Below are positions 1-2,029 of a stretch of DNA of 33,932 nucleotides, piece by piece. Below the pieces are notes generated by a model that was given only the letters and a program-made list of their open reading frames with translations, did no database searches and was not told the DNA's origin. Made by a program: the position numbers and the translations under genes. The DNA comes from Thermoanaerobaculum aquaticum (lineage in GTDB: Bacteria; Acidobacteriota; Thermoanaerobaculia; Thermoanaerobaculales; Thermoanaerobaculaceae): NCBI RefSeq assembly GCF_000687145.1, contig NZ_JMFG01000013.1:1-33932 (forward strand), given 5' to 3'. Numbering within the stretch: the stretch's first letter is position 1; every line of letters starts with the position of its first letter.

Positions 1-75
1 GGGCCGCCGCTCCGCGGCGGCAAACCCGCGACGGAGCGCGGGTCCCACATTTTTTAGCGCGGGTCCCACATTTTT
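1..75. repeat. REP-like palindromic repeat, copy upstream of the transposase
   Basis: This element has the same plan as the two copies downstream of the transposase gene. It has a perfect GCCGCCGC/GCGGCGGC hairpin with a TCC loop, then an ACCCGCG/CGCGGGT hairpin, then two GCGCGGGTCCCACATTT tails. It differs from the other copies in lacking the A-rich linker (GAAAAAAG) between the hairpins. The second hairpin has a 7-bp stem with an ACGGAG loop instead of 8 bp with AGGA. It begins at the window edge, so it may extend further left. Inverted GC-rich palindromes beside a Y1 transposase fit the REP/RAYT association. Confidence 0.75.
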
Positions 76-155
76 CTTGAACTTGCGACAGGTCGCGGAT
101 CCACATCCGAAGCCCAGTCTCGAAACCTTAGAGTTGATCGTGGTAAATTGTCCCC

Positions 156-611
156 ATGAGCTTCCCGGGACGCCCTCGTCGCCTGGAGGGTTTCCCCTAT
201 GATCGTCCGGGACCAGTGTTTCACGTGCGTATCGGCTGCCTGGATCGGAAACCACTGTTTTCGAACCCCAAGCTTGCCCAGGCTGCAGTTGACGCGCTGC
301 GCTTCTACGGCCAAAGCCGGATCAACCTTTTTGCTTACTGCATCATGCCGGACCACATTCATGTACTCATGGCTCTGCGGCAAGAACAGGATAGCCTAGG
401 CCGCTGGGTGGCGGATTTTAAGCGTTGGCTCGGCAAATTTGACGTGCAATTCCAGCCGGGTTTCTTCGAGCATGTGCTCCGGAAACAGGAGAAGCTCGCC
501 GTCGTGGCGCGGTACATCGTAGGGAACCCGATACGTGCGGGCTTGATGGCTCCAGGGAAACCGTGGCCCTGGGCCGGCATTATGGGCGATTGTGAACAGG
601 GAGACGGGTAG
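156..611 (+). CDS. REP-associated tyrosine transposase (RAYT, Y1/HUH family)
   Basis: This 151-residue protein belongs to the Y1_Tnp (IS200/REP-associated) single-strand HUH nuclease family. The metal-binding HUH motif is visible as MPDHIHVLM (His67, His69). The likely nucleophile is Tyr120 in ARYIVGNPIRAGL, matching the family pattern YIxxNPxRAG. Full-length RAYTs are typically about 150-230 residues, so this is short but has both catalytic elements. No partner gene and no IS ends are present; instead GC-rich hairpin repeats lie on both sides, the arrangement expected of a domesticated RAYT acting on REP sequences. The ATG at 156 has no clear Shine-Dalgarno sequence, so expression may be weak. 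Family assignment is firm; activity on the flanking repeats is inference. Confidence 0.88.
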   Translation: MSFPGRPRRLEGFPYDRPGPVFHVRIGCLDRKPLFSNPKLAQAAVDALRFYGQSRINLFAYCIMPDHIHVLMALRQEQDSLGRWVADFKRWLGKFDVQFQPGFFEHVLRKQEKLAVVARYIVGNPIRAGLMAPGKPWPWAGIMGDCEQGDG

Positions 612-642
612 CTCGGCGTGTGTCGCCGCCGGTCCACTTGTG

Positions 643-722
643 GGGCCGCCGCTCCGCGGCGGCAGAAAAAAGACCCGCGCAGGAGCGCGGGTCCCACATT
701 TTTCAGCGCGGGTCCCACATTT
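643..722. repeat. REP-like palindromic repeat, downstream copy 1
   Basis: An 80-bp unit. Hairpin 1 is GCCGCCGC (645-652), loop TCC, GCGGCGGC (656-663). An A-rich linker (664-672) follows. Hairpin 2 is ACCCGCGC (673-680), loop AGGA, GCGCGGGT (685-692). Two copies of a GCGCGGGTCCCACATTT tail end the unit. A third, degenerate tail (GCGCGGGTCCCGCAGTTTTC) follows at about 726-745. The unit differs from the copy at 754-833 by one base. Confidence 0.85.
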
Positions 723-753
723 CGAGCGCGGGTCCCGCAGTTTTCTCTGTGCG

Positions 754-833
754 GGGCCGCCGCTCCGCGGCGGCAGAAAAAAGACCCGCGCAGGAGCGCG
801 GGTCCCACATTTTTTAGCGCGGGTCCCACATTT
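754..833. repeat. REP-like palindromic repeat, downstream copy 2
   Basis: This is a second 80-bp unit in the same orientation, offset by exactly 111 bp from copy 1. It is identical except for one C-to-T change in the T-rich spacer between the two tails. Both perfect 8-bp hairpins are conserved. The near-identity implies recent duplication or homogenisation. No open reading frame of credible composition crosses this stretch. Confidence 0.85.
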
Positions 834-899
834 GCCGAGGTGGTCGCGTTTGCGGTGTGGAGTCGCCTTTGAAGATTCGTTCTCCGTTAGACTTCGCCT

Positions 900-1370
900 A
901 TGGCGGTGTTAGCGCACGTGGTGCTGGTTTCGCCGGAAATCCCCTGGAATACCGGCAACGTGGGTCGCAGCTGCCTGGCCTTTGGCGCTCAGCTCCACCT
1001 GGTGCGGCCCCTGGGGTTTTCTCTTTCATCTTCAGCCCTGAAGCGGGCTGGCCTCGATTACTGGGAGCACGTGCAGCCGCGGGTTTGGGACAGCTGGCCG
1101 GCTTTTGCGGGGGCTTTGCCGGTGCTGGGCGAGGCGTTCTTTTTTTCTGCGGAAGGGGAGCGCAGCCTGTTCGAGATTGCCTTTCCGCCCCACCCGGTGC
1201 TGGTCTTTGGGCGGGAATCGGTGGGCTTGCCTGAAAGCTTGCGGCGGCAGTTTGCCGAAAGGCTGGTGCGGATTCCCCAGGAACCGGGAGTGGTTCGCTC
1301 TCTGAACCTTTCTTCGGCGGTGGCGGTGGCCTTGGCCGAGGTATACCGCCAGCAGCGGGTGCCGAAATAA
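900..1370 (+). CDS. trmL: tRNA (cytidine(34)-2'-O)-methyltransferase TrmL
   Basis: A 156-residue SPOUT-class methyltransferase, the same size as E. coli TrmL. It uses S-adenosylmethionine to methylate the 2'-OH of the wobble nucleotide in certain leucine tRNAs. The trefoil-knot SAM motifs are visible: EIPWNTGNVGRSC near the N-terminus, VLVFGRESVGLPESL mid-protein, and VVRSLNLSSAVAVALAEVYRQ-type sequence at the C-terminus, which matches the family's RSLNLS...ExxRQ signature. The ATG at 900 aligns with the usual family start, although no strong ribosome binding site precedes it. The gene begins 66 bp after the last repeat copy and may share a transcript with the yceI-like gene that follows. Confidence 0.9.
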   Translation: MAVLAHVVLVSPEIPWNTGNVGRSCLAFGAQLHLVRPLGFSLSSSALKRAGLDYWEHVQPRVWDSWPAFAGALPVLGEAFFFSAEGERSLFEIAFPPHPVLVFGRESVGLPESLRRQFAERLVRIPQEPGVVRSLNLSSAVAVALAEVYRQQRVPK

Positions 1371-1435
1371 AGAAAGGCGCTTTTGGGTTTTTGGGGCTAG
1401 CCCGGATGCAAACTGGGCAGAAAGGGAGGGTTGTT

Positions 1436-2029
1436 ATGAGGAAGGTTGTCTTGGTATTTGCGGCAAGCTTGCTCGCTTTGGGTGCCCAAGCGCAAGAACA
1501 AAAGACCGTTTGGAGTCTTGACCCGGCGCATTCCTCGGTAGGGTTTTCGGTGCGGCACATGATGGTTTCCAACGTACGCGGGGAGTTCACGCAGTTTTCG
1601 GTGTCCGTGACCACCGTGGCCGACAAGCCGGAAACCGCCCAGGTGGAGGTGAGCATCCAGGCGGCCTCCATTGATACTCGCATTGCTGACCGCGACAAGC
1701 ACCTACGTTCGGCGGATTTCCTGGACGTGGAAAAATTCCCCACGATTACCTTTGTGTCCAAGAAAGTGGAGCCGGCGGGGAACGGGAAGTTCCGGGTGAC
1801 CGGGGATCTCACCATCAAGGGGGTCAGCAAACCGGTGGTTCTGGAGGCCGAGGTGAGCCCGGTGATGAAGGACCCCTGGGGTAACCTGCGGGTGGGCGTG
1901 CACGCCACCACGACCATCAACCGAAAGGACTTCGGGGTTTCCTGGCACAAGGTGCTGGACACCGGTGAGGTGGTGGTGGGCGACGACGTGCGCGTGATTT
2001 TGGACGTGGAGCTAGTGAGAAAACCCTGA
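1436..2029 (+). CDS. Secreted YceI-like lipid-binding family protein
   Basis: A 197-residue protein with an N-terminal signal peptide (MRKVVLVFAASLLALGAQA, probable cleavage after AQA near residue 19). The mature part is a YceI-family beta-barrel: WSLDPAHSSVGFSVRHM at its start, the DKHLRSADFLDVEKFPTI block in the middle and the GxxTINRKDFG-like stretch (TTTINRKDFGVSW) near the end are hallmarks. Family members bind polyisoprenoid or other amphipathic lipids in the periplasm; the ligand here is unknown. I chose the ATG at 1436 over an earlier in-frame ATG-type start because GGGAGGG lies 5 bases upstream and the signal peptide begins there. An intrinsic terminator about 110 bp downstream ends the transcript. 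Confidence 0.9.
   Translation: MRKVVLVFAASLLALGAQAQEQKTVWSLDPAHSSVGFSVRHMMVSNVRGEFTQFSVSVTTVADKPETAQVEVSIQAASIDTRIADRDKHLRSADFLDVEKFPTITFVSKKVEPAGNGKFRVTGDLTIKGVSKPVVLEAEVSPVMKDPWGNLRVGVHATTTINRKDFGVSWHKVLDTGEVVVGDDVRVILDVELVRKP

Follow-up and report, generated by a model that had tools for sequence, protein, structure and literature searches.

The start of this contig raises the question of whether a short transposase-like gene and the hairpin repeats on either side of it belong together or share the place by chance. The window, a stretch of 33,932 nt, comprises bases 1–33932 of contig C13 in the draft genome of Thermoanaerobaculum aquaticum (2.66 Mb, 68 contigs, 95.8% complete). We conclude that the locus is very probably a REPtron, that is, a single RAYT gene with its own REP family, and that it likely spreads dozens of short intergenic hairpin repeats by means of its transposase-like gene. 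The reading as a REP/RAYT locus, proposed in the initial annotation, is upheld by the protein family, the fold, the flanking inverted repeats, the genome-wide copies and a foot conserved beside RAYTs of the same clade. The locus is of a known kind; the odd extra is a series of half-REPs at regular spacing, which is also its least explained part. The way in which RAYTs drive the spread of REPs is still poorly understood, according to the available part of PMC8266576. The locus extends the REP/RAYT map by a clade of Thermoanaerobaculaceae RAYTs with GTGG as the foot, and it offers a natural comparison between two congeners in which 69 and 65 REPs were found and one in which there were none.

An intact RAYT gene between inverted REPs

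The reading frame at 156–611 is open and, as described at the outset, encodes a Y1 transposase with the HUH motif (MPDHIHVL) and a tyrosine (RYIVGNPIRAG). Its score against the NCBIfam model NF047646 (REP_Tyr_transpos) is 79.7 bits, the curated cut-off being 80, and against Pfam Y1_Tnp 21.2, with a cut-off of 23. A Pfam search of the whole genome gave nothing at threshold; the NCBIfam model did pick up the RAYT gene. The best PDB match by sequence is the TnpArep structure 4er8 (1.7e-6). An AlphaFold model of the protein, built from an alignment of 29 sequences (the RAYT and 28 relatives), has a mean pLDDT of 91.6, and its top fold match is again 4er8, a RAYT bound to a REP hairpin (7.3e-8, TM 0.63/0.58). 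Residues H67, H69, Q100, R109 and Y120 are invariant across the 29 aligned sequences. In the alignment to 4er8, Y120 corresponds to residue 115, Q100 to 95, R109 to 104 and F99 to 94; Y115F is the catalytic mutant of PMC8266576, and W94, Q95 and R104 figure in the account of guide recognition in PMC6006769. Sequence, alignment and model agree on a Y1 HUH fold with an H-x-H motif and a single catalytic tyrosine.

REPs lie on both sides of the gene, at 1–73, where the left copy is truncated by the contig start, and at 637–833 (Table 1). The initial annotation described a composite element, present on both sides, of two distinct hairpins with tails. Its presence on both sides is borne out; the two hairpins and tails are instead an inverted pair of one REP. 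Read in one direction, all copies have the elementary form 5'-TGTGGG-[GA]CC-stem-TCC-stem. Since the composite consists of two inverted copies of this REP, the GCCGCCGC and ACCCGCGC hairpins have a common 5' foot, TGTGGG, and the supposed GGGTCCCACATTT tail is the foot of the second REP, read as its reverse complement; such tails lie partly on half-REPs. A REPIN is here composed of REP-Y, a short linker and a reversed REP-Z, each with a foot and, directly behind it or one base further on, a hairpin of about 8 bp that pairs almost perfectly.

Table 1. Features at the RAYT locus (positions in the window)
Feature	Position	Strand	Remarks
REP-Y hairpin, left REPIN	1..21	+	GCCGCCGC-TCC-GCGGCGGC at 3-21; 5' foot lost at contig start
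REP-Z, left REPIN	21..51	-	Foot TGTGGG 49-44, stem ACCCGCG/CGCGGGT; covariance-model match
Half-REP type Z (foot and 5' arm, without 3' arm)	50..70	-	21 nt to next foot
RAYT (TnpA_REP), 151 aa	156..611	+	HUH H67/H69, Tyr120; Q100 and R109 conserved
REP-Y	637..667	+	Foot TGTGGG 639-644, perfect 8-bp stem, loop TCC, hairpin end 663
A-rich linker inside REP pair	664..671	.	Sequence
REP-Z	670..700	-	Foot 698-693; T run after it on minus strand
Half-REP type Z	699..719	-	Spacing 21 nt
Half-REP type Z, foot TGCGGG	720..739	-	Spacing 20 nt
REP-Y, third REPIN	748..778	+	Foot TGCGGG, one base off
REP-Z, third REPIN	781..811	-	Covariance-model match
Half-REP type Z	810..830	-	Spacing 21 nt
Flanking gene, SpoU-type RNA methylase	900..1370	+	Right-side marker for comparing relatives

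The earlier statement that the repeats have no GTAG-type guide does not hold. GTGG is present in the 5' foot, within the published GT[AG]G that, at the 5' foot of a palindrome, defines a REP in the available parts of PMC3686654 and PMC6006769, and GTGG is among the feet listed for O. terrae (PMC3733652). In a search that allowed only one foot substitution, the GTGG foot is found in 64 of 65 full REPs at the scanned loci of the T. aquaticum genome (TGTGGG in 61) and in all 31 at those of the congener G002. Only the copy at 750 in the window departs from this, with GCGG. Across 58 aligned copies, all three G of GTGG are invariant and the T is kept in more than 90%. The hairpins are indeed bigger and more symmetrical than enterobacterial REPs, as had been remarked, yet perfect stems of 8–9 bp are ordinary in Stenotrophomonas (PMC3686654). 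Folding of positions 637–724 gives z = -4.8; an Rfam search of window positions 1–1500 returned 10 matches, every one below the gathering score.

Covariation was counted on the 31 of 58 REPs that are in 4-nt register. Both sides are altered in four of the eight stem pairs, and pairing is kept in 96.4% of cells, versus 84.7% in shuffles and 31–48% with slid partners; the presence of a hairpin was one ground for choosing the copies, a bias towards pairing that affects the compensatory changes at pairs 1, 4 and 5 less. Two of the five covariation measures are weaker: 15 of 500 shuffles attain the observed number of pairs changed on both sides, and 39 of 500 attain that of pair types. In the MAFFT alignment of the 58 REPs, 3' arms fall out of register because no gap was placed in the 3-nt loops. 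Taken by script, all 58 comprise 14 distinct stems with 108 of 112 cells paired; 2000 shuffles of this set gave a mean of 90.2 paired cells (sd 4.1, highest 103).

The two REP types also occur together. At the scanned loci, all 31 cases of neighbours less than 60 nt apart in T. aquaticum are Y-Z pairs (12 foot-to-foot and 19 tail-to-tail), and so are 13 of the 14 cases in G002. Tail-to-tail pairs, the arrangement of REPINs, hold 38 of the 65 full REPs at the scanned T. aquaticum loci, with linkers of 7–18 nt. The linkers measure 11–13 nt in 14 of the 19 pairs of this genome versus 18–19 nt in eight of nine in G002, which suggests separate amplification of a distinct REPIN type in each lineage. 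The integrity of the gene, its family and predicted fold, the structure and covariation of the REPs, their copy number and their pairing, all observed here, back the REPtron.

Copies across the genome and in the congeners

A BLAST search with the 191-bp query 643–833 gave 46 matches in the T. aquaticum genome, partial ones included. A count of matches to the 80-bp unit, as the initial annotation had suggested, gave 26 here, 19 in G002 and none in the second congener, G001. It was matched in four of 59 genomes, two of which (G043, G058) have single marginal matches. A covariance-model search, in which 150 candidates per genome were scored with rough E-values, gave among the matches listed 69 full REPs in the T. 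aquaticum genome, 65 in G002, none in G001 and 0–7 in each of 18 other genomes. Together with the folding score of 637–724, the numbers of matches and REPs in T. aquaticum go far beyond what chance would give. In T. aquaticum, none of the 29 REP clusters overlaps a predicted gene, the genes being predicted by a crude home-made codon-usage finder. The TnpA proteins of IS200/IS605 elements (IS608, ISDra2) share the Y1/HUH fold and the guide logic with the RAYT (literature), but those elements move as whole insertion sequences, whereas here the gene was not seen to multiply with its ends: a single NF047646 match stands against 69 REPs in a 95.8% complete draft, and an IS200/IS605 copy was rejected. 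So was a CRISPR-like or plain tandem repeat, since the units are inverted pairs and dispersed.

The 80-bp copies at 643–722 and 754–833 do differ by one base (99% over 80), as first described. For this pair only, and compatibly with a REPtron, local tandem duplication or conversion rather than the RAYT is a fairly probable source. The next best copy found in the genome is only 88% alike and the two lie 111 bp apart start to start; each being the nearest match of the other among the copies found, they fit local duplication or conversion as well as transposition. Such an event leaves unexplained the copies at about 27 other places, as given by grouping of BLAST matches.

The repeats might also be kept mainly as terminators or mRNA 3' hairpins, their spread by the RAYT being history, which would likewise be compatible with a REPtron. 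A T run follows REP-Z in 19 of 29 T. aquaticum copies; the REP-Z at 670–700 is followed by one and is therefore terminator-like as well; minus-strand terminator-like matches lie at 695–670 and 806–781. Of 20 clusters with both flanks, nine stand between convergent genes, seven between unidirectional and four between divergent ones (nine more clusters lack one flank). However, the T run is found after one of 15 REP-Z in G002 and after none of 52 REP-Y (36 in T. aquaticum, 16 in G002), and the GTGG foot, the Y-Z pairing and the RAYT are all superfluous for a terminator. We consider this account quite unlikely.

The congeners provide both REP-free and REP-bearing versions of orthologous regions, the comparison that had been suggested initially, and G001 is empty at the RAYT site. 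There, the methylase gene lies only 50 nt behind a gene for a PAS/histidine kinase/receiver protein (Pfam), and neither RAYT nor REP stands between the two; the 50-nt spacer has one two-mismatch resemblance to the foot on one strand, and the covariance model gave no REP anywhere in this genome. In T. aquaticum, contig C10 ends with the kinase orthologue and REPs that follow it, and C13 opens with the RAYT and REPs, after which comes the methylase gene; the two corresponding genes of G002 are likewise located at REP-bearing contig ends. From this arrangement of contig ends, the RAYT locus most likely lies between the kinase and methylase genes, across an assembly gap. Six orthologous sites were compared, among which C20:101.4k and C20:227.6k have flanks on different contigs or around large inserts. 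Site C8:81.4k has, by eye, a REPIN and half-REPs in T. aquaticum, at best a degraded REP remnant in G002 and nothing in G001, and sites C20:236.7k and C20:268.4k carry REPs of differing make-up in T. aquaticum and G002.

The initial annotation held that absence of the element elsewhere in the genome, or its equal presence in genomes lacking the transposase, would speak against the link. REPs are present genome-wide in T. aquaticum; on the second point, G002 has approximately as many REPs and no RAYT was detected in it (E ≤ 0.001, despite 65 REPs). This absence is not secure, as the contigs of G002 break off within REPs at the site of the RAYT. G002 is counter-evidence to the link between RAYT and REPs that is weakened by the assembly gap but still stands. 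The REPtron is further backed by the position of the REPs outside predicted genes, the empty site of G001 and the foot conserved beside same-clade RAYTs. Present activity of the locus is plausible given the intact gene, the lineage-specific linker lengths and the differences in presence and absence. In T. aquaticum, REP matches lie at or beside the ends of several contigs (C13 at its start, C10 at both ends, C3 at its start, C20, C35 and C9 at their ends), so the repeats fragment assemblies and can hide a RAYT.

Related RAYTs and known systems

Some Y1 match at E ≤ 0.001 is found in 33 of 59 relatives; identity above 40% over most of the protein is seen, besides the gene itself, only in three genomes of the same family (G013, G011, G004). 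In G004, similarity of the RAYT frame (L093, G004:C2:49344-49754) ends after NPVRAGIV and the frame runs on for well over 100 residues; it is possibly frameshifted. The closest RAYTs in named records, L103–L105, come from Thermoanaerobaculaceae or Acidobacteria and form one clade with the window RAYT (support 98/95). By eye, the REPs flanking them are inverted pairs with TGTGG-like feet (L105 also has TGTGC, L103 also TGCGG) like those of the window, but have other stems, and the linkers of L104 are longer and contain a small hairpin. Stacks of half-REPs at 20–22 nt were not found near these three RAYTs.

The tree includes 39 of 81 RAYTs, the other 42 having been left out to keep it small. The GTGG label, carried by six rows (the window, L103, L104, L105, L153 and L177; L103 by eye, its hairpins missing the strict rule), takes three changes on this tree, a number that is valid for the 39 only and is equally low in two of 500 shuffles. 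GTGG-footed hairpins stand beside L153 and L177, outside the clade of the window, and the foot therefore changed more than once on the tree. Under the strict rule, GTAG-footed hairpins are also present at L104, L105 and L177. L125 and L161, which are absent from the tree, have one GTGG hairpin each. Across the 81 loci, a GT[AG]G-footed hairpin lies within 500 nt of the RAYT in 67 and is absent in 14. GTAG hairpins number 216 near RAYTs (75 kb) versus 45 far from them (260 kb), which gives GTAG the fourth-highest ratio among all 256 tetranucleotides; those above it include TAGG and CGTA, which look like its shifted readings, and GTAA has 15 near versus two far. For GTGG there are 20 hairpins near (75 kb) and 20 far (260 kb), a density only about 3.5 times higher near RAYTs.

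It is very improbable that the element is MITE-like, bounded by terminal inverted repeats (TGTGGGG...CCCACA) and mobilised by a different transposase, with the RAYT inside it by chance: the feet of a pair are inverted repeats that pair with each other in the predicted fold, and tyrosine transposases with long TIRs (TIRYT) are known in Acidobacteria (PMC3733652), but TGTGG-like feet with different stems lie beside same-clade RAYTs in three other genomes, the hairpin stands directly at the foot, which TIRs do not require, and the half-REPs are polar.

The REPtron of E. coli resembles this locus in that a single RAYT is flanked by inverted pairs of two REP sub-types (Y and Z; BIMEs) (PMC6006769), the hairpins have a 5' tetranucleotide foot, and the catalytic tyrosine, the HUH motif and the equivalents of Q95 and R104 are conserved. 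The differences are the foot, here GTGG and not GTAG, a perfect stem without a mismatch bulge, F99 in place of W94, and a protein of 151 versus 165 residues. Stenotrophomonas REPs likewise have a perfect 8–9 bp stem at the tetranucleotide (PMC3686654) and, like the REPINs of Pseudomonas fluorescens, form intergenic inverted pairs. In comparison with both, the present repeats have another sequence and come from another phylum, their linkers are mostly 11–13 nt (T. aquaticum) or 18–19 nt (G002), and half-REPs are stacked next to them.

By analogy with the enzymes of E. coli, Stenotrophomonas and Marinomonas, the RAYT would bind the REP hairpin of one strand while the DNA is single-stranded. GTGG would serve as the guide, Tyr120 would cut beside the hairpin, and the strands would then be rejoined, by which REPINs may be copied or moved to other intergenic places. 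In the available part of PMC8266576, a RAYT binds one hairpin strand, the foot is required and helps to choose the cut, and strands are rejoined through a tyrosine link. The same source describes cutting of Marinomonas GTGG variants at CA and CC, on the basis of which CA or CC cut sites are predicted for the window RAYT.

Half-REPs at fixed spacing

In a count limited to five spellings of the foot, feet that share a strand and are separated by less than 60 nt number 32 in T. aquaticum (21 at 20 nt, eight at 21, two at 22 and one at 41) and 17 in G002 (six at 20 nt, eight at 21 and one each at 22, 29 and 42). A spacing of 20–22 nt leaves no room for the 3' arm. The intervening bases come either from the loop of the REP itself (TCCTGC, TCCGCA) or are A-rich (GAAAAA), and the length is constant regardless. 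A full REP downstream is reached from 31 of the 32 half-REPs in T. aquaticum and from 14 of the 17 in G002. A stricter count of half-REPs relative to full REPs gives 22 upstream and two downstream in T. aquaticum, and 10 and none in G002.

Half-REPs were also scored at nine of 80 foreign RAYT loci (19 upstream, one downstream), several at odd distances that may be due to chance. Clear cases by eye are those of Smithella (L122, 21 nt; RAYT at 2219–2638) and Natronospirillum (L163, 28–29 nt), which belong to unrelated phyla. PMC3116915 describes tandem REP arrays at 72 or 112 bp, arrays with even spacing, and REPINs that have inserted within or beside other REPINs. No description of half-REPs was found in the available parts of PMC3116915, PMC3686654, PMC6006769, PMC8266576 and PMC3733652, a weak indication of novelty.

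We tentatively suggest, as a possible but rather unlikely account, that half-REPs are scars of a polar RAYT reaction, or else an array of binding sites that repeats every two helical turns, and not decay products. In the scar version, one REP would be cut within its loop or immediately past it, freeing a 3' end, and joining of this end to a cut a few nucleotides upstream of the foot of another REP would produce a half-REP. If this is true, half-REPs would be a general trace of REP multiplication that can be read from sequence alone, since they are also seen beside the Smithella and Natronospirillum RAYTs. If the RAYT makes these polar half-REPs at fixed spacing, their junctions could be examined as reaction products in the established assay for cleavage and strand transfer.

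At least two of the half-REPs without a downstream full REP lead into another repeat module, and elements near REPs are mosaics of REPs and other hairpins. A separate GC-rich module (GGGGGG..GCGAGCGG..CCCCCCGCG) lies near REPs at four T. aquaticum loci (L058, L049, L064, L065), its end being 5 nt before a REP foot in four of the five copies found. Two further module types occur near REPs, with seven and 10 copies at the scanned loci of T. aquaticum and G002.
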